From NCBI GenBank assembly GCA_910574865.1, contig CAJTDN010000008.1:1-64000 (forward strand): a stretch of DNA of 64,000 nt, written 5' to 3'. Positions 617 through 27,885 of the stretch are shown here, in pieces. The notes under the pieces were generated by a model that saw nothing but the letters and a program-made list of their open reading frames with translations, was not told the DNA's origin and ran no database searches. Within the stretch, counting starts at the first letter, position 1; each line of letters opens with the position of its first letter. This DNA comes from Lachnospiraceae bacterium. Lineage in GTDB: Bacteria; Bacillota; Clostridia; Lachnospirales; Lachnospiraceae. A program made the position numbers and the translations under genes.

Positions 617-1723
617 TTAATCCCATGGATGCGCGAAACCAACGATATATGAATTGAAAATCGAATACCATCTTGGTCTTATCCCATCTTCCAACGCATC
701 CATTACCAATACAGAACTGCCCCTTACTCCCACCACCAATCCGGCATGGCTACATGACACATTCTCAATATTAGAAAAATACGGATATCGAAAGAAAACA
801 ATATCCCCCGCTCGAGGATTAAAATCCACCATCCCCTTACTTTTAAACCAATCATAATTTTCATGGGGCCATCCTGACTTCAGGCCATCAGCAAGATGTC
901 CAGATAGTCCTGATTGATAAAATGTCCACCAAACAAATCCCATACAAGAGCCGTAATGACAAACTTTGCCTCCATTAATCGCTAATATTCCTGAAGGATT
1001 TACAGTTTCAACCCTTTGCCCTGATACACTATATGCCATATTTACTATCTTGTCTATTTTATCTTGTCGACTATATACCTCACCTGTCAATTCATCAAAA
1101 TATTCCCATTTTCCATCTATATGTTGCTCACCATAAAGCATACGACCAGTAAAAGAATCATAATACACCCACTTATCACTTTCTGGAATCCATGCCCAGT
1201 CATAATCTACCGCACCGGTTCCCGGAGTCAGATAATACCATCCTCCATCTATATATTGCTCACCATACAACATCCAACCCATAACGCGGTCATAATATAC
1301 CCACTTGTTATCTTTTTCAATATATTGAAATCCATATTGTACCGCTCCCGTATAAGAATCAAATAAATACCAATGATTGTCAATATATTGTTCTCCATAC
1401 ATCATTTTTCCTTGAATATCATAATAACACCACTTCTCTTCCAAGGGAATATACGCCCACCCAACATTCATTTCCCCATCTTTCTCCGGGACAAAATAAT
1501 ACCAATGCCACTTTCCTGCCTCATCTTCTATATAACGCTCCCCTATTGCTTTTATCCCGTCCTCATAATAATAAATCTTACCCGCCTCATTATGAAATCC
1601 GCTTATTTCCACTACTGAATCACTCGCATAAACTAATACAGCATCTTGGATTAACATCATGGCTAAAAGAATCACCGAAATAATTCTTCTAACCATGATG
1701 TTCATTTCCTTTTTACATCTCAT
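617..1723 (-). CDS. Secreted CHAP-type amidase with cell-wall-binding repeats
   Basis: A 368-residue exported protein: signal peptide (about 10-33), five or six choline-binding-type repeats (about 45-215), then a C-terminal cysteine peptidase/amidase domain (about 220-368). The probable catalytic Cys lies in GSCMGFVWW and the His in CSHAGLVVGV, the usual Cys-His pair of CHAP/NlpC hydrolases. It probably cleaves peptidoglycan cross-links or the amide bond at the cell surface. The frame overlaps the end of the YfhO-like gene by 11 bases, which suggests translational coupling. An internal ATG at 1696 has AAGGAA 9 bases upstream and would give a signal peptide beginning MVRRIIS; both starts are plausible. 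Exact bond specificity cannot be read from the sequence. Confidence 0.85.
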   Translation of the reverse strand: MRCKKEMNIMVRRIISVILLAMMLIQDAVLVYASDSVVEISGFHNEAGKIYYYEDGIKAIGERYIEDEAGKWHWYYFVPEKDGEMNVGWAYIPLEEKWCYYDIQGKMMYGEQYIDNHWYLFDSYTGAVQYGFQYIEKDNKWVYYDRVMGWMLYGEQYIDGGWYYLTPGTGAVDYDWAWIPESDKWVYYDSFTGRMLYGEQHIDGKWEYFDELTGEVYSRQDKIDKIVNMAYSVSGQRVETVNPSGILAINGGKVCHYGSCMGFVWWTFYQSGLSGHLADGLKSGWPHENYDWFKSKGMVDFNPRAGDIVFFRYPYFSNIENVSCSHAGLVVGVRGSSVLVMDALEDGIRPRWYSIFNSYIVGFAHPWD

Positions 1724-3995
1724 TGCTTACCTTCTCTCTTCCTCTCGTAATCTTTCTTATTATAATGCACCACGCGACCAGAAACAACGTGGAAATGGCA
1801 CTGACCAGCACGCCGATTTTTAAATAAAGCGCCGTATAGCTAAAAACGATTTCGTTCTCCCCGCGTTCCGCCTTCACCGCCATCAGGCCATTAATGTTTA
1901 AAATCTCCGTACTTTTACCATTCACTTCCGCCTTCCACTGCGCGTCATATGGCACGCTGAAAAACACGAATTTTTCATCATCCAAGGTAATCCCTGCCCG
2001 AAACCCCAAGGTATCGCTCTCAAATTCTGAAATCATCTCTTTCCCGCGTTCCTCGACATATTCTTCTTTCTTGTCAACGCTGATTCTCTCGTCTTGCGCC
2101 ACGGCATGACGCAAGACTCCCTCCACTTTCTGTTCGTCCTCGTCCCTTACGACAAGACCGTGCAACATGCCACAAGCGCGGGCTTCCTGAGGCAACTCCA
2201 AGAATTCCGTCTGTGTCATATAGGAATCATATGCAAAACCTATGGGAAGGCTCTTCATATCGTAAACCCAGATTTGCTGGAATCCATTATGGTATGAAAT
2301 AACCTCTTCTAAATCTTTGTCCTCGTAATTCGCCACGTAATATCCCACTCCCAAAAGTTCATCCGTCCCATTCGGACCGTTCACCCCAATCGTGTGCCGA
2401 TGTTCTCCCAACATGTCATACAACTCGAAAATGGAAGAGGACACCGTCGACGAAAAGGAATTCCTTGTTGGTAGATAGGATGCCAATCCCCTATTATAAT
2501 AATTTTCCCAGAATTTATAGCGATACGGCAACACGTCGCGCTCCAAGTTTTCTCCCGTACCCGCCACGTCGTGATACGTGTCCTGACTGCTCCCATGCTC
2601 ATCGTTCTGGCGGTACGTATATACCGTCAGCCCCGTCGTGAACACCGCGACACACATGATGGACACCGTCAGTACCGGCAACATGTGCTTGTACAACCTT
2701 GTCGTGACCACGCATGTTACTATTACCCCGCCGATGGCGACCGCCACCATGATTCCAAAAATAACCGGCCTATATATGACATTTCCAATATTTTCCTTAT
2801 CCATGGAGCATAAAATAAGACATATGCCCTCTATCAATCCAAGGGAATAAATGCCACCCTGAACAATCGGATATTCTTTTCGATGTTCCAAAACCTCCTG
2901 GCTCGCCAACACTAACATCAAAACCATCATATAATACCACCTTCGATAAGGCTCCGATGTAAACAACACGAATGCATTATTAAATGCTGGAATAAACATC
3001 ATCGCGAAGCATGCCACTATCATCCGCTTCAGCCATGTCCCTTTACTCCTTATCAAATACGCCACTACCAGGACGACACCCACCAAGGGCAGGTAAGCGG
3101 ACACCGAGTACCAATTGAACTCGCTTAGCGTGGCCGCCTTCGCCATGTTTTCCGCCGGCAAAATCAATGCCTTGACATTGCGCAGATAGTCCTTCCAATC
3201 AAAAAGAACCAACCCCAGTCCGCTTATCTTTTCAGAAAAACGAGTATTGTTCAACACGCCCATACAAGATGGGACAAAAAGAGCTCCTGCCATTCCAGTA
3301 CCCAGAATCCCCTCCCACATGCATTGTGGAACACGTTTGACATTCTTCCATTCCTCGCAAAGAAAACGTACCACAAAGTACACGATTACAAAAATAACCT
3401 CTCCCACGAAAAAGAAGTAGTTTAAAAAGGCATTTGCGAATACCGCCAATGCAAAAACGCCTTTTCTCTTTTCCCGCATCATAATTTCCAGTCCCAATAA
3501 TAGCAACGGAAACAATGCCACCACGTCATGAAAATGATAAAACACGAGGTTGCAGCATTGGAACCCACAAAACGCATAGAGTAGTGAACAGCATACCGAT
3601 ATTCTCTTATTTTCAGAAAAACGTGCCAGAAATAAATACGAGGTCAGACCTGCCACCGCATATTTCAACATATAAACCCATCCCATAAGATATGGGATGG
3701 ATTTAACGGGAAACAAAAGCATGATCCAGAAAAAAGGGCTGCCTAAATTATAAAAACTAAATGTCGTGATAAAATCCGAACCCAAATCAATATTCCAGTT
3801 CCAGAATATTTCCCCGTTCTTGATTGCCTGACTGGCAAACATGTTAAATGACCACTCTTGCGCGTTATAGTCATTGGATAAGGAAAATATGCCACCGCCA
3901 AGAACGATAAATACTGCAAGTGACAAAAACGCGCAACAAAAGTTCAACAAAAATGCCGCTACCGCATGCTTATTTTTCCTTATCCAAGACCTCAT
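1713..3995 (-). CDS. YfhO-family multi-pass membrane protein
   Basis: A 760-residue membrane protein with about a dozen hydrophobic segments in the N-terminal two thirds, a large extracytoplasmic region (about 450-720) and a last membrane helix near the C terminus. The N-terminal pattern (YNAQEW, WNWNIDLGSDF, NLGSPFFWIMLLFP) is that of the YfhO family, GT-C-like proteins linked in other Firmicutes to glycosylation of teichoic acids or surface polymers. It lies between a GH25 muramidase gene (49-base gap) and a wall amidase gene (11-base overlap), and the glycosyltransferase upstream of the muramidase is of the type that charges a lipid carrier. A joint role in decorating a wall polymer is inference. 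Start supported by AAAGAGG 11 bases upstream. Confidence 0.85.
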   Translation of the reverse strand: MRSWIRKNKHAVAAFLLNFCCAFLSLAVFIVLGGGIFSLSNDYNAQEWSFNMFASQAIKNGEIFWNWNIDLGSDFITTFSFYNLGSPFFWIMLLFPVKSIPYLMGWVYMLKYAVAGLTSYLFLARFSENKRISVCCSLLYAFCGFQCCNLVFYHFHDVVALFPLLLLGLEIMMREKRKGVFALAVFANAFLNYFFFVGEVIFVIVYFVVRFLCEEWKNVKRVPQCMWEGILGTGMAGALFVPSCMGVLNNTRFSEKISGLGLVLFDWKDYLRNVKALILPAENMAKAATLSEFNWYSVSAYLPLVGVVLVVAYLIRSKGTWLKRMIVACFAMMFIPAFNNAFVLFTSEPYRRWYYMMVLMLVLASQEVLEHRKEYPIVQGGIYSLGLIEGICLILCSMDKENIGNVIYRPVIFGIMVAVAIGGVIVTCVVTTRLYKHMLPVLTVSIMCVAVFTTGLTVYTYRQNDEHGSSQDTYHDVAGTGENLERDVLPYRYKFWENYYNRGLASYLPTRNSFSSTVSSSIFELYDMLGEHRHTIGVNGPNGTDELLGVGYYVANYEDKDLEEVISYHNGFQQIWVYDMKSLPIGFAYDSYMTQTEFLELPQEARACGMLHGLVVRDEDEQKVEGVLRHAVAQDERISVDKKEEYVEERGKEMISEFESDTLGFRAGITLDDEKFVFFSVPYDAQWKAEVNGKSTEILNINGLMAVKAERGENEIVFSYTALYLKIGVLVSAISTLFLVAWCIIIRKITRGREKVSNEM

Positions 3996-4044
3996 GATAC
4001 CATATACCTCTTTCTTTAAAATCTTTCTTTAAAATCTTTCCTTA

Positions 4045-5829
4045 TTATTGCCGGATTCCCGTTATTTCATTAAAATAAAACAATCCCTCCGGCAACCATT
4101 GCCAACCTTTGAGCATTTCCCCGGTCGTCTTGTCAAAATAATAGGTTCCCGCAGCCGTCTGGTCCCAGCCTTTCACCATGGCACCTTCGGCATTATAACG
4201 AACCCACTTTTTTTCATTCGGAATATATACATCTTTGGAAACAGCAACCGAACCATCAGCATCAAACCATCTCCATCCATTATCAATGAACATCTCCTGA
4301 CTTTTTGCTGTTACCATAATACCCGTGATTTGATAAAAATATCGATACTTTCCATCTACTTTTACAACCCCTTTACTCATTCTCCCAGAATGTGGGTCAA
4401 AATAATATGTTCCATCTTCATTAGTATTCCATCCTTTAACCATATCTCCATTCGCATCATATCGTACCCACTTATTTTCAGCAGGAAGGTACACGTCCTT
4501 TGACACAGCCATGGTTCCGTCCGCGTCAAACCATTTCCACTGGTTGTTTACCACGGCTTCCTTGCTTCTCGCCATGACTCCATACTCATACAAATATGTT
4601 TTCCCGTTCTCCACCACCAACTGCAGGCCGTCCGTCTGTCTATTTGCAAAGGAAAAATCAAAATTAAGATCCACCGGACCCTCGATTCCGTCAACGGTTC
4701 CGGACGAAGTGGCCTGCCACATCGCATACTCTCCTTGATACGTACATACATGGTTATATTGCGCGACCCACTTGTCCCACTTTTCAAATCTGTTATCCGT
4801 AAGATAATTATTAAACCAGTATGTATTGGCATAAATGCCTACCGAATATCCCGCGTCAACTATCACATCGCAAAATGCCTCGGCGATATCCCCCCGTTCC
4901 TCTGCGGTAAGCGTCGTCTGGTCAAACGGGCTCTTTGAATTTTCCAAATCATAAAATACCGGATATTTCATGTCGGAAGGTTTGATTTTATTCTCCTCCA
5001 ATACGCGCAATACATGTTCCGCCTCGTCCACCGCCGCTTCCACGTCCATGGCATAGGAATACAAATAAACGCCAAACGGGATACTAAGACGCTTACATTC
5101 CTTTACGTTATACGCAAAATAACGGTCATCCTGACTCGGTGTGTTTTTCCCATAAGCGCAACGGAGGATTGCAAAATCAATGTCCGTCTTTCTCACCTTG
5201 TCCCAGTCAATTTCATACTGCCACTGGCTGACATCCATTCCTTTTGCAATGACACCCTCAATCGGTTTTCCTTTGTTGTTCATATACTTTCCATTTACTT
5301 TCTGCCACGCGAACTCATATTCATCCTCTGCCACCGCGCGTGCCCGCGACCTCGTTTGTCCGTTGGAAGAAGACGGCGGCGTCCACTCCCCCTCGGTATA
5401 TCGCCAGCTGTTTGCAATCTGCTCATCCTCTGACTGGCCAGATTCCCCTTGTTCTCCCGATGCCTCCGGTTGTCCCGGCATAGGTTCCACGGATTGTTCC
5501 GGTGCCGCCGACTGTTCTGGCACGGGTTCCACGGACTGTTCTGGCGCCTCCGGCTGGCCCGGCACGGGTTCCACGGACTGTTCCGGCACCTCCGGCTGGC
5601 TTGGCACGGGTTCCACGGATTGTTCCGGCGACGCTGACTGTTCCGGAGCAACTTCCTGACTCCCATCAAGCAATCCATCCATCAAATCCATTGAACTTTG
5701 TTCATGTCCCGTCTCGGCAGCGATTCCGGCACCATCTCCGACTTCTGTTGCTTTTACCGATATTCCCATTGTGCCCAATATCATTGTCAGACTGAGCATA
5801 ATTCCTATTAATCTTTTTGTTCTCCTCAT
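4045..5829 (-). CDS. GH25 muramidase with Pro-rich linker and cell-wall repeats
   Basis: A 594-residue exported lysozyme-like enzyme. Order: signal peptide (1-28), acidic Pro/Glu/Gln linker with four 14-residue repeats (68-123), GH25 catalytic domain (about 192-385), then five or six cell-wall-binding repeats (about 405-594). Catalytic signatures are KGMDVSQWQ with Asp199 and VFYDLE with Asp294 and Glu296, as in Cellosyl and Cpl-1 type muramidases that cut the N-acetylmuramyl linkage. The wall repeats differ in sequence from those of the two downstream proteins. The start ATG is preceded by AGAGGAG. It probably acts in wall remodelling on the cell surface; the linker may span the wall or be glycosylated (inference). 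Confidence 0.93.
   Translation of the reverse strand: MRRTKRLIGIMLSLTMILGTMGISVKATEVGDGAGIAAETGHEQSSMDLMDGLLDGSQEVAPEQSASPEQSVEPVPSQPEVPEQSVEPVPGQPEAPEQSVEPVPEQSAAPEQSVEPMPGQPEASGEQGESGQSEDEQIANSWRYTEGEWTPPSSSNGQTRSRARAVAEDEYEFAWQKVNGKYMNNKGKPIEGVIAKGMDVSQWQYEIDWDKVRKTDIDFAILRCAYGKNTPSQDDRYFAYNVKECKRLSIPFGVYLYSYAMDVEAAVDEAEHVLRVLEENKIKPSDMKYPVFYDLENSKSPFDQTTLTAEERGDIAEAFCDVIVDAGYSVGIYANTYWFNNYLTDNRFEKWDKWVAQYNHVCTYQGEYAMWQATSSGTVDGIEGPVDLNFDFSFANRQTDGLQLVVENGKTYLYEYGVMARSKEAVVNNQWKWFDADGTMAVSKDVYLPAENKWVRYDANGDMVKGWNTNEDGTYYFDPHSGRMSKGVVKVDGKYRYFYQITGIMVTAKSQEMFIDNGWRWFDADGSVAVSKDVYIPNEKKWVRYNAEGAMVKGWDQTAAGTYYFDKTTGEMLKGWQWLPEGLFYFNEITGIRQ
5461..5628 (-). repeat. Four 42-bp tandem repeats in the muramidase linker
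   Basis: Four in-frame units of 42 bases encode PEQSVEPVPGQPEA-like 14-mers (residues 68-123 of the muramidase). Units differ at a few positions (SQPEV, GQPEA, EQSAA, MPGQPEA). Such units can vary in number by slippage, so linker length may differ between strains. Confidence 0.85.
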
Positions 5830-22181: not shown

Positions 22182-24875
22182 TTACACGTCCGTTTTCGAC
22201 ATCTGTGAAAAGGAAATGACCGCCTCATTTTTTTTCATGAACAATAACCCGAACGACCTCGGGCCGCAATTACTGGCAATCGCGGAAGAGGCCTTCTGCA
22301 GGTAAACCCGTTCAAACGGGCAGTACTGCCGCACCAGGTTCTGGATGTAGAGAAGGCTTTTCTCGTCCATACCCGCGTACGTGATAAACAACACGCGCTT
22401 GTCGATGTTCCCCGCGTCCCGAAGCACCGATCGGACATAACTTTTCGCCACATGTGCAAAATTTCCCATCCTCATGCCGGCGACCGCCATCTTGCTCTTG
22501 CGCAACTCGATGACGGGATGCAACAATAATGATTCGCAAAGGACGTGTATCCTTTTGGATATCCTTCCCGACTGGCACATCATTTGCGTGTTGTCTATGA
22601 TAAACGCAGAAGAAATATAATTCCTCAACCTTTTCACGTTTCTCACGACATCCGCCTTCGAGGCATGATGTTCCACCATGGAAGCGGCGTATAACACTAT
22701 CAGCCCCATGCTGCTGGAAAGGTGCCCGGAATCCAGCACCGTGACGTTCTCAAACGACTTTGCCGCCTCCAGGGCATTATAATATCCCTGGCTGGCATAT
22801 TTTGCCATCGTAATATGTATCACGTTCTGCGACTCAGTCAGCTTTTCCGCGAAAAACCTTTCATAATCTTCCACGTCGGGCGGCTGCGAACAGCCAGTTT
22901 GCCCTTCCGACATGTGGAACAGCAATTCGTCCGCGCTCAGCTCCACCTCGTCCAAAAACCGTCCCTGTTCCGTACGGACATAATATGGGCAAACGGAGAT
23001 GCCAAACTCTTGCCTCAAGGATTCTGGAAGGTCGCACACGCTGTCCGTCGTAACCACGAGCGACAACCTCTGCGTCTGCTCGAAAATCAGGATATCCTTT
23101 CCAATCTCGAACTGCTCGGTTTCCTCACTCAACTTCACCAATTCCTTTGGCAGGACACTCAGCACGGCCGCCTCAAGCAACGCCCCGCTGACCGGCTTCG
23201 CCAGGTAGCCGCTGAATCCCTCTTTCCGATAAAGGAGCTGGTTGTCGCTTCCCGCGTTTGCGGTCAGCGCGATTACGGGCACGTCCTGGCACAATCCCAC
23301 CGGCTGCGTGCGTAATGCGTGAAGGCACTGTATCCCGTCCATCTCCGGCATCAGGTGATCCATCAGGATAACGTCATAATGTTGTTCCTGCGTCAGTTCC
23401 AGGCACTCGGCGCCACTCGATGCCGTGTCTATTTGAATCTTCGTCTCGGCGAGCAGCTTGCGCACCACCATCAGGTTCATGTCATTGTCATCCACCACCA
23501 GTATGTGGGCATCCGGCGCCTCAAAGCTTTGTCTATATTGCTCCTTGTCATGGCTCCTGACGCGGGAAGCCAACGTAAACGTCCCAAGTTCCCTTTCATC
23601 AACGATGTCCTGCTCCAACATGACGATGAACTGCGACCCCTTGGTATAGACGCTATTGATGCTGATTTCCCCTTCCATCAGTTCCACCAGCTGTTGAACG
23701 ATGCTAAGCCCCAGCCCGGTGCCTTCGATATGGCGGTTCTTCTCCTCGTCCACCCTCTTGAACGCGTTAAAGATGTAAGGGATGTTTTCCTTTTTCACCC
23801 CCAGCCCGGTATCCTCCACGGTATACCAGACGCGCACCTTGTTAAGCGTCAGGCGTTCGCAACGGACAGAAAGGGTGACGGATCCCTCGCTCGTGTATTT
23901 CACGGCATTGTTCAACAAATTAATCAAAATCTGCTTGATGCGTACCTCGTCGCCACAAAGCATGCTTGGAATCGAAGAGTCCACGTGCAGCTTGAATTCC
24001 AGTCCCTTCTGCTTCGCCTTAATCCATATCATGTTGACGATTTCCGAAAAAAAGCTCCCCGTCTCGTAGGAAACATTGACGATTTCCATTTTCCCCGACT
24101 CAATCTTGGACAAATCCAAAATGTCATTAATCAACGTAAGCAGCATTTTGCTGGCACCCTGGATGTTCCTCGCGTTCTCGGCAACTTCCTCTGGAATGTC
24201 ACCCCGCAGGATGATTTCGTTTAGACCGATAATCGTGTTGATGGGCGTGCGAATTTCATGGCTCATGCTGGAAAAGAAATGGTTCTCCGCCTTGTTCAAT
24301 TCCTCGATTTCCCTTTTCTGACGCTTCGTGATTTCGTTTTCCTCTTCATACATCCGATTCAAAAACATAAGTATTATGCTGGTCAAAAATCCCACCATGA
24401 TGACGGAAATTGCCGAGGTAAGAAAAGACTGTTCCGGAGTCTTCGCCGCGGCCAATTCCGGATAATAAAGGGCAATCCAATAACAAACCAGCGTCTCCAC
24501 CGCACAGAGCAGGAAAAACACGTATTTCCGCTTTCCCTCCAAGGTAATGCTGATATAGATGAAACAGAGCACGAACCACTCGGGCATCCCGCTATAAAAT
24601 CCACCCGCCGTGAAAAAAGTTTCCGGGAATAGCAGGAGAAGCAAAACCACGATGGCGGTGGCTCCCGTATTGATACATTCTTTTTGAATGCTGACTTTCA
24701 CGATGAATGCCATGATAACGAGGCTCACCAGTAACAAGCACAAATTTAATACGCTCTTGCCCATGGGCATCGTGCATATCAACGCAATCATGCAAATGCT
24801 CGTAATCAGGCGAAACAAACGCTCCCGCAAACTGATTTTATGATTCGAGATGATTTCAAACCATTTTTCTAACAC
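22182..24875 (-). CDS. Hybrid histidine kinase-receiver fused to a DegV domain
   Basis: About 897 residues from a GTG at 24875 (GGGAGG 9 bases upstream; an in-frame TTG lies at 24899). Order: about six membrane helices (20-172), HisKA with His206 in SHEIRTPINTI, HATPase (307-424; NNAVKYT, DTGLG, GTGLGLS), receiver with Asp506 (ILMDHLMPEMDG) and Lys560, then a full DegV/EDD domain (605-889). DegV landmarks: TTDSVCDLP, GCSQPPDVEDY, VLDSGHLSSSMGL, CQSGRIS, HPVIELRKSKMAVAG and CGPRSFGLLF. Stand-alone DegV/FakB proteins bind a fatty acid. Here the SSxLSGT-type stretch and the conserved His (Asn869 instead) are altered, so the ligand may differ. No DNA-binding output is present. Last gene of a three-gene operon. 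Confidence 0.9.
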   Translation of the reverse strand: MLEKWFEIISNHKISLRERLFRLITSICMIALICTMPMGKSVLNLCLLLVSLVIMAFIVKVSIQKECINTGATAIVVLLLLLFPETFFTAGGFYSGMPEWFVLCFIYISITLEGKRKYVFFLLCAVETLVCYWIALYYPELAAAKTPEQSFLTSAISVIMVGFLTSIILMFLNRMYEEENEITKRQKREIEELNKAENHFFSSMSHEIRTPINTIIGLNEIILRGDIPEEVAENARNIQGASKMLLTLINDILDLSKIESGKMEIVNVSYETGSFFSEIVNMIWIKAKQKGLEFKLHVDSSIPSMLCGDEVRIKQILINLLNNAVKYTSEGSVTLSVRCERLTLNKVRVWYTVEDTGLGVKKENIPYIFNAFKRVDEEKNRHIEGTGLGLSIVQQLVELMEGEISINSVYTKGSQFIVMLEQDIVDERELGTFTLASRVRSHDKEQYRQSFEAPDAHILVVDDNDMNLMVVRKLLAETKIQIDTASSGAECLELTQEQHYDVILMDHLMPEMDGIQCLHALRTQPVGLCQDVPVIALTANAGSDNQLLYRKEGFSGYLAKPVSGALLEAAVLSVLPKELVKLSEETEQFEIGKDILIFEQTQRLSLVVTTDSVCDLPESLRQEFGISVCPYYVRTEQGRFLDEVELSADELLFHMSEGQTGCSQPPDVEDYERFFAEKLTESQNVIHITMAKYASQGYYNALEAAKSFENVTVLDSGHLSSSMGLIVLYAASMVEHHASKADVVRNVKRLRNYISSAFIIDNTQMMCQSGRISKRIHVLCESLLLHPVIELRKSKMAVAGMRMGNFAHVAKSYVRSVLRDAGNIDKRVLFITYAGMDEKSLLYIQNLVRQYCPFERVYLQKASSAIASNCGPRSFGLLFMKKNEAVISFSQMSKTDV

Positions 24876-24931
24876 ACGATGTATCCTCCCTTCACTCAAA
24901 ACTTAAACATTCTCAAAATCATTATAAAAGC

Positions 24932-27526
24932 CTACAATGCGGCAATGCTCTCACATACTTCCTCGTACGACCGCAACAACGCGGGATGGTTCCGCCGGAC
25001 ATATTCCACGTCCCCGCTCTTCCCCGCCTGCTCCAATGCCTTTGCCTGCTCAGAAAGCCGCTCAGCCCCAATGGTCAGCGACGTGCTCTTTAAGGCATGA
25101 ACCTTGATTGCGTAATCCGTCCAATTTTCCGCCTCGTACAAGGCAACAATTTCCGCTTTCTTTTCCGCGCCCTGGGAATGGAACGTCTGCAACATCTCCA
25201 AATAAAAGTCTTCCTCCCCACAACAATAATCCAGACCCATCTTCACGTTGATTCCGACCTGTACGAGCGACGCGTACGGCAAAGAGGATTCCGCAACCGG
25301 TTCCGCCCCTCCAGGTTCAGGCACGTTCAAAGTCACAAGGGCTTCCTGCCGGCCATCCCCATCCTCTGGTGCTTTTGCATCAAGTGGGGAACCCCCGCCT
25401 TCTGGCGCTTTTGCATCAAGTGGGGAACCCTTGCCTTCTGGTGCTTCAGTAGCAACCTCGCGCCCCATACCATACCGTATGCAATGGCCGGGCAAGACCC
25501 TGCGCAACACCCTCTCCAAAACGGCACGATCTATTGGTTTCGGTACAAATTCCGTAAATCCCTCGTTCTTAAACATTTCCCTCGCCCCGCTGATCGTGTT
25601 GGCAGTCAAGGCGATTATCGGCGAGTCCTGATATGCCCCATTATTAATTTCACGGATACGTTTCAGCGTTTGCACACCATCAAAGCCTGGCATCATGTGA
25701 TCCAGAAAAACGATGTCATACGTGATGTCCGCACACCGTTCCACCGCCGCCTTCCCATTAAGGCAAGTGTCCACCTGCATCCCATAACTGCCCAGGACTC
25801 CCTTGGCGACCACGAGGTTCATTTCCTCATCGTCAACCACCAAGACGCGGACTCCCACGCAGGAAAACGGCTTGCGCCCCGCGGCCTGTGCTTCTTCGAA
25901 ACCATTTTCCCTTACCTCCCCGTTTAACAAGTTCACGACCGAAAGGGCAAAAAACGGCTTGCGAATCACGAGCAGCCTGCTGTCCTCGTCCAGTATGAAA
26001 TTCTGATCCGCGATTACCACCACCTGGAGCGTGTTTGCCAACTCCTCATAATAGGAGCGCTTCTCTTCATACTGGGCTTGCGCGATAAACACATGGGTAA
26101 GTTGGTAAGTGCGTTGCAATTTGAGCAACCCTTCGAAATTGTGAGCCTGGTATCCCTCAAGCCCGAGTCCCTCCACCAGGTGCAAAATCAACTTGTCATA
26201 ATATTCCCGAACCTCGTCACCGCTATATTTCTCAGGCCTGAAATAGCACGCGATGCAAAGCCGCTCCGGGTCGGAAACGGCCATGCTTGGCATGTCATCC
26301 GCCACGCCCTGGGGAATGATGATATGGGCATGCAATCCTTGTTGTTCTTCGCTCTCGAAACGAATGAACCCGCCCATGGCGTGAAGGAGCCCCCGCGCAA
26401 TGGGAAGACCGAGTCCCAGCCCGCCCGCAAACCGGCTGCTGCCGGAATCCGCCTGGTAAAAATCGTCGTACATCTGCAAAAGTTGGGAATCCGTCATGCC
26501 GATGCCGGTATCATGGATGTCAATGACCAGGTTGATTCCATAATCCTCCCGCCGGAATTCAATACAGACGTTTATCCCGCCCTCTTCCGTAAACTTAATG
26601 GAATTCTCCAGCAAGATTTTAAGTACGTGGGAAATCTTTTCCGCGTCCCCGATAAGTACTGCCGGGATCTCCGGATTAATGTCAAACACCATTTCCAGTT
26701 GAGACTTGCCACTCTGCAACGCCGTCGTGGCAATCACGTCATTGAGCACCGAGGTAATCATGTACTCTTCCTTGACCGGGGTCAGCGTTCCCTCCACTAT
26801 TTCCGTGTAGTCAAGCATATTGCTAATCTGGCTGGACAAACGCTTGCCCGCCATCTGTATGGACTGCAGGTCGGCCCGGATTTCAGGGGAAATGTCCTTT
26901 TCCAACACGACCTCGCTGATTCCAAGCACCATGTTTATGGGAGTACGAAGCTCATGGGAAACGTTTGACAAAAAAACGGCATTCTGCCGCCCGGCCGTTT
27001 CCAACTGCACGAACGCGTCGGTGAATGTCTCCCTTGCCTCCTGCCTCTTGCCAATCTTGTACCTCGTAATCTGGGTCGCGCCCGCCACCGCCACTATGCC
27101 GAGTACCAAGTGTACCATGTCTTCTCTCTCCATGGTATGGGTGATGGTATGCAGGCACAAGAAATGATACAAAAGCCCAAACACGTACAAGGCGGCTGTC
27201 ATGTACAACAGCCGCTTTCGATCCAACACGGAAAGTACAATTAGAATGATACAGGCCACGATGGCCATGTCATAAAGGCTGATCCTATGTACGCCAAAGA
27301 AAAAAAACTCGCCCATCAACAATCCGGCACATATATTCTCATAAAGCACTTCGGAACCAATCCTCGTGATATGAACCATCCACACGACGAAACAACCGAT
27401 AAAAATCAGCGGAACCATCCATGATTCCCACGACATGGCTATCGTAATCAAAATCAACAGGGCACTAAACACGCTGACGACGCTGGCAAAAAGCAAATAC
27501 ATGCCCGTACGCCTTTCCTCGTTCAT
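24932..27526 (-). CDS. Hybrid sensor histidine kinase with receiver and HPt domains
   Basis: An 864-residue membrane kinase: about six N-terminal helices (10-150), HisKA with His191 (NVSHELRTPINMVLG), HATPase (about 293-405; DTGIGM, GGLGLGLPI), a degenerate receiver-like segment (about 420-540), a true receiver (559-680, phospho-acceptor Asp609 in IVFLDHMMPGFDG), a Pro/Gly linker with two 11-residue repeats, and a C-terminal HPt domain with His810 (VHALKSTS). This is a complete His-Asp-His phosphorelay in one chain. Its ATG overlaps the stop of the lone receiver gene (4 bases), and the DegV-fusion kinase follows after about 56 bases. The signal is unknown; the sensor region has no recognisable extracellular ligand domain. 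Confidence 0.93.
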   Translation of the reverse strand: MNEERRTGMYLLFASVVSVFSALLILITIAMSWESWMVPLIFIGCFVVWMVHITRIGSEVLYENICAGLLMGEFFFFGVHRISLYDMAIVACIILIVLSVLDRKRLLYMTAALYVFGLLYHFLCLHTITHTMEREDMVHLVLGIVAVAGATQITRYKIGKRQEARETFTDAFVQLETAGRQNAVFLSNVSHELRTPINMVLGISEVVLEKDISPEIRADLQSIQMAGKRLSSQISNMLDYTEIVEGTLTPVKEEYMITSVLNDVIATTALQSGKSQLEMVFDINPEIPAVLIGDAEKISHVLKILLENSIKFTEEGGINVCIEFRREDYGINLVIDIHDTGIGMTDSQLLQMYDDFYQADSGSSRFAGGLGLGLPIARGLLHAMGGFIRFESEEQQGLHAHIIIPQGVADDMPSMAVSDPERLCIACYFRPEKYSGDEVREYYDKLILHLVEGLGLEGYQAHNFEGLLKLQRTYQLTHVFIAQAQYEEKRSYYEELANTLQVVVIADQNFILDEDSRLLVIRKPFFALSVVNLLNGEVRENGFEEAQAAGRKPFSCVGVRVLVVDDEEMNLVVAKGVLGSYGMQVDTCLNGKAAVERCADITYDIVFLDHMMPGFDGVQTLKRIREINNGAYQDSPIIALTANTISGAREMFKNEGFTEFVPKPIDRAVLERVLRRVLPGHCIRYGMGREVATEAPEGKGSPLDAKAPEGGGSPLDAKAPEDGDGRQEALVTLNVPEPGGAEPVAESSLPYASLVQVGINVKMGLDYCCGEEDFYLEMLQTFHSQGAEKKAEIVALYEAENWTDYAIKVHALKSTSLTIGAERLSEQAKALEQAGKSGDVEYVRRNHPALLRSYEEVCESIAAL
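25364..25441 (-). repeat. 33-bp tandem repeat in the receiver-HPt linker
   Basis: Two near-identical 33-base units plus a partial third encode GSPLDAKAPEG-like 11-mers between the receiver and HPt domains of the upstream hybrid kinase (residues about 696-721). A repeat of this kind is prone to copy-number change and would alter the reach of the HPt domain. Confidence 0.8.
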
Positions 27527-27885
27527 CTCTCTTCAAGCTCCTTTGCGACCCGTTTCACCAGTTCATTCGGATAAAACGGCTTTTTGAGGTAATTCACCGC
27601 ACCTAGTTTAATCGCGCTCCGCACGTCGTCCTCGTAGCCCGACGCCGTCAAAAAGATTACCGGTATGTCAAGATTATCCGCTTTCATGCGCTCAAACGTC
27701 TCCATGCCATTCATCTTCGGCATAGCGATGTCCAGGAGCACCAGGTCCACCCTCTCGTCCTTCAGCTTCTCAAGGGCTTCCACTCCCGATTCCGCCAGAA
27801 GCACGTCGTAATAATCCTTCAAAATCATTCTCGTCCTTTTCAAATTCATCGTGTCGTCATCCACGACTAAAATACGTTTCTGCAT
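27523..27885 (-). CDS. Stand-alone response regulator receiver domain
   Basis: A 120-residue CheY-like receiver and nothing else: acidic pocket VVDDD (8-11), phospho-acceptor Asp52 in VLLDIAMPKMNG, conserved Thr in FLTAS and Lys in YLKKPF. With no output domain it probably acts by protein contact, for example as a phosphate acceptor or carrier for the HPt domain of the kinase it overlaps by 4 bases (ATGA junction). GGGAGG precedes the ATG, and a strong sigma-A promoter lies upstream, so this is the first gene of the signalling operon. Confidence 0.92.
   Translation of the reverse strand: MQKRILVVDDDTMNLKRTRMILKDYYDVLLAESGVEALEKLKDERVDLVLLDIAMPKMNGMETFERMKADNLDIPVIFLTASGYEDDVRSAIKLGAVNYLKKPFYPNELVKRVAKELEER

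Follow-up and report, generated by a model that had tools for sequence, protein, structure and literature searches.

What does a DegV domain do at the end of a membrane-bound sensor kinase? DegV/FakB proteins are carriers in lipid synthesis, and the question is raised by a gene of a Lachnospiraceae bacterium that joins such a domain to a hybrid histidine kinase (HK) with its receiver (REC). The gene lies in a stretch of 64,000 nucleotides (positions 1 to 64,000 of contig CAJTDN010000008.1, assembly GCA_910574865.1; hereafter the window) and is the third of a cluster encoding REC, HK-REC-HPt and HK-REC-DegV proteins, HPt being a histidine phosphotransfer domain. The DegV of this cluster belongs to a clade that is found in phosphorelays of one bacterial family. 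We see about an even chance that it acts as a ligand-responsive sensor or regulator of the relay, derived from a FakB-like acyl carrier. The gene and its domains are as follows.

22182..24899, minus strand: HK-REC-DegV gene, a single intact frame of 905 amino acids from TTG
24360..24830, minus strand: six predicted membrane helices (AlphaFold2 model, mean predicted local distance difference test score (pLDDT) 89.1)
24093..24284, minus strand: HisKA (Pfam, residues 206-269, E 2e-17), with phospho-His214 (206 in the shorter form) at 24258-24260
23610..23954, minus strand: HATPase_c (Pfam, residues 316-430, E 2e-25), N and G1 boxes intact
23163..23504, minus strand: receiver, Response_reg (Pfam, residues 466-579, E 2e-24), with Asp514 (506 in the shorter form) at 23358-23360
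22233..23060, minus strand: DegV (EDD) domain (Pfam PF02645, residues 614-889, E 9e-39)

Residues are numbered in the 905-residue form. The GTG at 24875, eight codons inside and preceded by GGGAGG, is the likelier start and gives a product of 897 amino acids, the numbering of a first-pass annotation made from the letters alone, which is lower by 8. The domain order given there (six helices, HisKA, HATPase, receiver, DegV) is borne out by Pfam and by the AlphaFold2 model, and its His206 and Asp506 are present as His214 and Asp514. In the model the last membrane helix continues directly into the phosphoacceptor helix; the Pfam scan of the protein returned no match in the six-helix region and no periplasmic or HAMP domain. 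The DegV domain is full-length, as the annotation had it: it scores 133.9 bits against a cut-off of 27 and covers positions 2-279 of the 280 in the profile, and with 143.6 bits it likewise passes the cut-off of the NCBIfam model TIGR00762 (DegV; 99.7 bits). The comparison with FakB folds that had been proposed gave a two-lobed EDD fold (pLDDT 92.6, predicted template modelling score 0.90), the closest matches of which are solved DegV/FakB structures. Among the aligned HK-REC-DegV(-HPt) rows, 143 of 147 reach at least 880 amino acids, so that the frame is uninterrupted in relatives, and the phospho-His is present in 146 of them, the remaining row having a gap at this position.

All features of a hybrid-kinase phosphorelay are in place, namely the HisKA His, the HATPase boxes and the receiver Asp, the HPt being supplied by a partner kinase encoded directly upstream.

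24932..27526, minus strand: partner kinase HK-REC-HPt, 864 amino acids (Pfam; His191, Asp609, HPt His810)
24962..25198, minus strand: HPt domain of the partner kinase (Pfam), the sole HPt of the kinase pair
27523..27885, minus strand: stand-alone receiver protein, 120 amino acids, Asp52 (Pfam), overlapping the partner gene by 4 bases

Between HATPase and receiver, the partner contains a stretch of some 150 residues (about 410-558; 25853-26299, minus strand) without a Pfam match. A decayed (pseudo-)receiver was considered for this segment and is unsupported (hhalign of 44 such segments against their own receivers, probability 3.7).

This arrangement recurs in relatives. The counts of architectures, HPt domains and neighbours rest on small local domain models, and neighbours were fetched for part of the matches spanning REC and DegV (60 regions plus those of some other searches). 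In the window and 164 further loci, with KIN denoting the kinase part, KIN-REC-DegV was found 134 times, KIN-REC-DegV-HPt 21 times, REC-DegV, DegV-KIN-REC and KIN-DegV twice each, and DegV-KIN-HPt and DegV-HPt once each. Addition of 14 loci and removal of identical proteins left 160 distinct proteins, distributed over KIN-REC-DegV (130), KIN-REC-DegV-HPt (21), REC-DegV (2), DegV-KIN-REC (2), KIN-DegV (2), DegV-KIN-HPt (1), DegV-HPt (1) and DegV-KIN-REC-HPt (1); the last of these frames (L255) continues the cut gene L176, the two being parts of one gene. A Pfam scan that covered 11 fused proteins and some neighbours detected DegV in all 11 and HPt in both KIN-REC-DegV-HPt proteins tried, and it supports the forms with N-terminal DegV (L176, L177, L178, L181). 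In one locus, L184 (G309), the gene is split, the kinase-receiver part and the DegV part lying in two overlapping frames. L179 (1790-4378) and L180 (1951-4563) encode kinase-DegV proteins without HisKA or REC match (Pfam on L179 only), followed by a gene with weak GGDEF and dCache matches and then by a GGDEF protein; these two are possibly a degenerate branch.

In most loci the partner kinase is encoded directly upstream, and the flanking genes beyond differ. For 158 distinct fused proteins (the 160 minus two cut REC-DegV frames; four partners are cut and a few are in pieces), both members of the kinase pair were readable in 141 cases, and exactly one HPt was found in 138 of them. The sole HPt sits on the partner in 116 pairs and on the DegV protein in 22, as expected of one shared phosphorelay. 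The exceptions are L046, with the HPt on a separate gene alongside, L128, with a shortened partner, and L193, the second of tandem DegV kinases. The 17 uncounted proteins comprise 13 without a same-strand upstream gene in view, two that are cut themselves and two with another upstream gene (L045, L194). After clustering at 60% DegV identity the rule held in 47 of 48 countable clusters, L046 being the exception; 6 of the 54 clusters were not countable. At L193 (G419) the tandem HK-REC-DegV genes appear to have one HK-REC-HPt partner between them. The conserved phosphorelay and the N-terminal, HPt-fused and separate-gene forms of DegV were missed in the first-pass annotation.

How widespread the fusion is was assessed with a REC-DegV profile in genomes drawn at four ranks. 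These draws are overlapping samples in which at most four candidates were scored per genome, and the family count is a lower bound. Matches spanning both domains occurred in at least 68 of 397 genomes of the family (90 matches), in 26 of 392 of the order (two outside the family), in 9 of 391 of the class (three outside) and in 3 of 398 of the phylum (none outside). The order count leaves aside a 27th entry that matched DegV alone. An initial search had been positive for 11 of 61 genomes, including 6 of 12 within the genus, own genome counted. Genomes G709, G364 and G342 contain at least four matches each. The best 80 of 551 named-genome loci, a set biased toward the window lineage, read as HK-DegV frames with a DegV of the window type at 72-88% identity. 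Their titles are mostly Lachnospiraceae or Clostridia, with a few Oscillospiraceae, Peptostreptococcaceae and Anaerotruncus, and they include Schaedlerella arabinosiphila, classed by NCBI under Lachnospiraceae, Sporofaciens musculi, Acetatifactor muris and Mediterraneibacter agrestimuris. Mouse-gut species are among these named kin. The REC-DegV fusion is thus established in one bacterial family and rare outside it. In a search restricted to open-access literature combining DegV with histidine kinase, receiver or phosphorelay no account of such a fusion was found; in the passages available from PMC12688256, PMC9912610, PMC3533761 and PMC12782446, DegV appears as ordinary genes in lists.

The history of the fusion can be followed through DegV proteins encoded by separate genes. 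Five stand-alone DegV genes (L248-L252) match the fused profile best, the split L184 excepted. All five lie directly after a KIN-REC-HPt gene, at spacings of -13 to +9 bases, and in three of them a REC-GGDEF gene comes next. Their neighbouring kinases match the partner type with 573-654 bits, against 243-258 bits for the DegV-kinase type, and so belong to the former. The next-scoring stand-alone DegVs (L253, L254) are not next to kinases. In a tree rooted with stand-alone DegV genes as outgroup, the relay DegVs form one clade apart from the stand-alone DegVs (support 100/99), within which L248-L252 branch before the fused DegVs, themselves a single clade (100/99). The window DegV clusters with the N-terminal and DegV-HPt forms (99/91). 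The branching order was unchanged in a repeat tree that omitted both L184 rows, four long rows and FakB1. Because the separate-gene DegVs branch first, the tree indicates that DegV entered the relay as a separate subunit and that the fusion came later. Standing beside a partner-type kinase and basal to the fused clade, these DegVs also suggest that the domain belongs to the relay even without a kinase of its own.

What has become of the binding pocket was judged against FakB1 of Staphylococcus aureus. According to passages of PMC8892158 and PMC9136124, its carboxylate network consists of Thr62, Ser95, Ser171 and His270, phosphoryl transfer requires Arg173, both FakA and the membrane are bound by Arg205, and the part that enters the bilayer is helix alpha8' with Trp180; further FakB passages are in PMC11617999 and PMC10138225. 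In the window protein Ser671, Ser703, Arg779, Met811 and Asn877 occupy the positions of Thr62, Ser95, Arg173, Arg205 and His270. Both profile and MAFFT alignments place a Ser, within a GCSQPP motif, at Thr62, and the headgroup network reads Ser, Ser, Ser, Asn. Thus Arg173 is kept and Arg205 is not. The replacement of the conserved His by Asn869 in NCGPRS, noted in the first-pass annotation, is confirmed as Asn877; the loss of the SSxLSGT stretch claimed there is half right, the pocket serine (Ser95 in FakB1) being kept as Ser703. Arg881 (22257-22259, minus strand) in the NCGPRS loop is Gly in 63 of 75 other members of the window lineage and Arg in four.

Pocket positions were counted in the 54 fused clusters (60% identity) and in 15 stand-alone clusters. 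Ser or Thr stands at the Thr62 position in 43/54 fused vs 15/15 stand-alone clusters, Arg at the Arg173 position in 21/54 vs 14/15, Arg at the Arg205 position in 2/54 vs 13/15, and Asn at the His270 position in 49/54 vs 1/15. The sole stand-alone cluster with this Asn is the L184 split fusion; with it excluded (14 clusters), Arg173 is found in 14, Arg205 in 13 and Asn270 in none. The loop glycines corresponding to G272 and G274 are kept in 54/54 and 48/54 fused clusters, the window protein having Arg at the second. Throughout the rest of the window lineage the Thr62, Ser95 and His270 positions are Ser, Ser and Asn (75/75 each), whereas Arg stands at the Arg173 position in 37/75 and at the Arg205 position in 0/75. 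All five separate-gene DegVs (L248-L252) have Asn at the His270 position and no Arg at the Arg205 position; being altered already, they suggest that both residues changed when DegV joined the relay and not at the fusion. For the DegV domain and its nearest relative, nonsynonymous and synonymous divergence (dN and dS) were 0.062 and 0.79, which points to purifying selection; in the other five pairs tried, dS of DegV was above 2 or not computable. We read the pocket as a retained cleft that would no longer serve FakA or membrane loading. Because the features for docking to FakA and the membrane are lost in the relay clade, its DegVs, as far as residues tell, are not FakB proteins in the functional sense. 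Compared with a long-chain fatty acid, their ligand may be shorter or more polar, or there may be none.

Regulators of cyclic di-GMP (c-di-GMP) are frequent neighbours, counted when encoded on the same strand within three genes upstream or two downstream. A c-di-GMP response regulator was nearby in 24/54 clusters (13 REC-HD-GYP, 8 REC-GGDEF, 3 both), a bare receiver in 11/54 and no regulator in 19/54. Among 20 control hybrid kinases, which were chosen for similar receivers from six genomes (G013, G015, G020, G022, G028, G033) and not at random, the corresponding numbers were 2, 6 and 12, and the enrichment of c-di-GMP regulators (24/54 vs 2/20) gave a Fisher p of 0.006.

From these observations the following mechanism can be proposed. 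The three genes would encode one multi-step phosphorelay, in which occupancy of the DegV cleft by a ligand would change the shape of the domain and so alter either the balance of kinase and phosphatase activity in the kinase pair or its phosphotransfer. Phosphate would pass from His214 to Asp514 of the DegV kinase, on to His810 of the partner HPt and finally to Asp52 of the stand-alone receiver. A REC-HD-GYP or REC-GGDEF protein would often come last in relatives, so that their relay would end in c-di-GMP turnover; the bare receiver of the window possibly acts in a CheY-like manner or as a phosphate sink. We infer the binding of a ligand, its acyl-like nature, the route of the phosphate and which way control runs.

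Several observations weigh against a ligand-responsive sensor. The ligand itself is putative. Ser is found at the Ser95 position in only 28/54 fused vs 15/15 stand-alone clusters, and the Trp180 position is hydrophobic in only 9/54 vs 14/15. Thr, Ser or Cys stands at the tunnel position A158 in 50/54 fused clusters, and a hydrophobic residue, Cys included, in 13/54 vs 11/15. With a polar A158 and the hydrophobicity at Trp180 lost, what binds may not be a long-chain fatty acid from the membrane. Across its lineage, the mean identity to the window protein is lower for DegV (0.75) than for the receiver (0.88) and the kinase core (0.90); the membrane part is least conserved (0.61). No c-di-GMP regulator is nearby in 30/54 clusters, and the last known relay protein in the window is a bare receiver, so that no c-di-GMP output can be claimed for its genome. 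Two KIN-DegV forms have no same-strand upstream gene, and L045, on a short contig, has a receiver gene and no partner kinase. Lastly, DegV follows the receiver in the window protein, the usual place of outputs. The same is true of the commonest forms, KIN-REC-DegV and KIN-REC-DegV-HPt, and would be expected if phosphorylation of the receiver opened or closed DegV and in this way governed whether an acyl ligand is taken up, stored or handed over. We regard such an output role as unlikely: N-terminal DegV-before-kinase forms and a DegV-HPt protein exist, separate DegV genes stand beside a kinase, three of the five followed by REC-GGDEF, and Arg205 and the membrane-inserting residues, needed for passing on acyl groups, are lost in most clusters. 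A sensor or regulator role is favoured over an output because the clade also occurs N-terminally, fused to HPt or as a separate protein beside the partner kinase. The lipid-coupled signalling suggested in the first-pass annotation, with a ligand that is perhaps new, survives as an idea in this form, while the output role offered there has become less favoured.

The variable pocket and the weaker conservation would also suit a ligand-free docking or scaffold domain, with DegV tying its kinase to the partner kinase or HPt and the EDD cleft left as a relic. DegV adjoins the partner kinase, there is one HPt per pair, the FakA- and membrane-docking residues are lost, and pocket residues vary at 60% clustering. 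We nevertheless think this rather improbable, since the model retains the complete two-lobed fold, Ser, Ser and Asn at the pocket mouth are invariant in the window lineage and the Asn also prevails among the clusters, and the loop glycines are kept, if not the second in the window protein. Less is to be said for a tethered FakB that would present fatty acid to FakA at the membrane under mere regulation by the kinase. Arg779 does retain the Arg173 position, and the genome has one FakA above the family cut-off (TIGR03599). However, of the seven DegV genes in this genome six are stand-alone, and together with FakA they indicate that an ordinary fatty-acid kinase system is present, separate from the relay; Arg205 is Met in the window protein and rare in fused clusters, Arg173 is kept in a minority of clusters and about half of the lineage, and His270 is Asn. 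This reading is disfavoured and very improbable. A chimeric frame produced by assembly or annotation found no support and is scarcely conceivable in view of the 72-88%-identity DegVs that read as HK-DegV in the best 80 of 551 loci and of the at least 68 positive genomes among 397 of the family. The sensor or regulator role of DegV thus stays our preferred reading.

Compared with FakB/DegV proteins (PF02645; S. aureus FakB1, Thermus thermophilus 2dt8), the window DegV differs by sitting in a phosphorelay, and its clade by the loss of Arg205, Asn at His270, a variable Arg173 and, in most clusters, the loss of membrane-inserting residues. RpfC/RpfG of Xanthomonas, which responds to diffusible signal factor (DSF), is similar in several respects. 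RpfC is a hybrid kinase that crosses the membrane several times and carries REC and HPt, and it works with a REC-HD-GYP protein on a cue of the fatty-acid type (PMC5391125). Among the relatives of the window protein a REC-HD-GYP protein is near 16/54 clusters (13, plus 3 with GGDEF), and such a cue is a working idea for this relay. RpfC, however, senses DSF through a 22-residue N-terminal region, the passages available from PMC5391125 mention no DegV, and the window has HK-REC-HPt with a bare REC but no REC-HD-GYP beside it. By its composition RpfC/RpfG appears to be the nearest working analogue, of which the window is not a member. The six-helix model weakly resembles the membrane domains of class III adenylyl cyclases, a match at fold level only, and may be compared with these and with the Vibrio quorum-sensing receptor (eLife 2024 RP101483; eLife 2016 e13098). 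In SaeRS, as described in PMC5539427, the fatty-acid level likewise feeds a two-component kinase system in a Firmicute, but FakAB acts indirectly by lowering the fatty-acid pool. The EDD fold of the window DegV is shared with DhaQ/DhaK, where DhaQ, titled a co-activator in its source, sets a precedent for the fold in regulation. DhaQ senses dihydroxyacetone.

Apart from the relay, 617-5829 (minus strand) encodes a YfhO-type membrane protein between two proteins with choline-binding repeats, of which one also has a CHAP and the other a GH25 lysozyme domain.

Taken further, one kinase might receive two lipid inputs, in the membrane through a six-helix receptor like those of cyclases or quorum receptors and in the cytosol through a repurposed FakB-like pocket. 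Via the HK-REC-HPt partner it would signal to c-di-GMP enzymes in relatives and, in the window lineage, to a receiver like CheY. Such a relay would be to Gram-positive bacteria what RpfC/RpfG is to Xanthomonas, with acyl signals or fat from host or diet as its cue; it is possible, but we put it forward as speculative.

For the family, these data suggest that a whole clade of DegV proteins has given up the carrier role, the docking residues being gone in most members, and now belongs permanently to phosphorelays, the way from a separate subunit to a fused domain being traceable. Should the pocket hold an acyl ligand, the relay would offer a direct handle on the sensing of fatty acids or acyl signals by these bacteria, tied to c-di-GMP in relatives; should it hold none, a lipid carrier would have been turned into a signalling scaffold.

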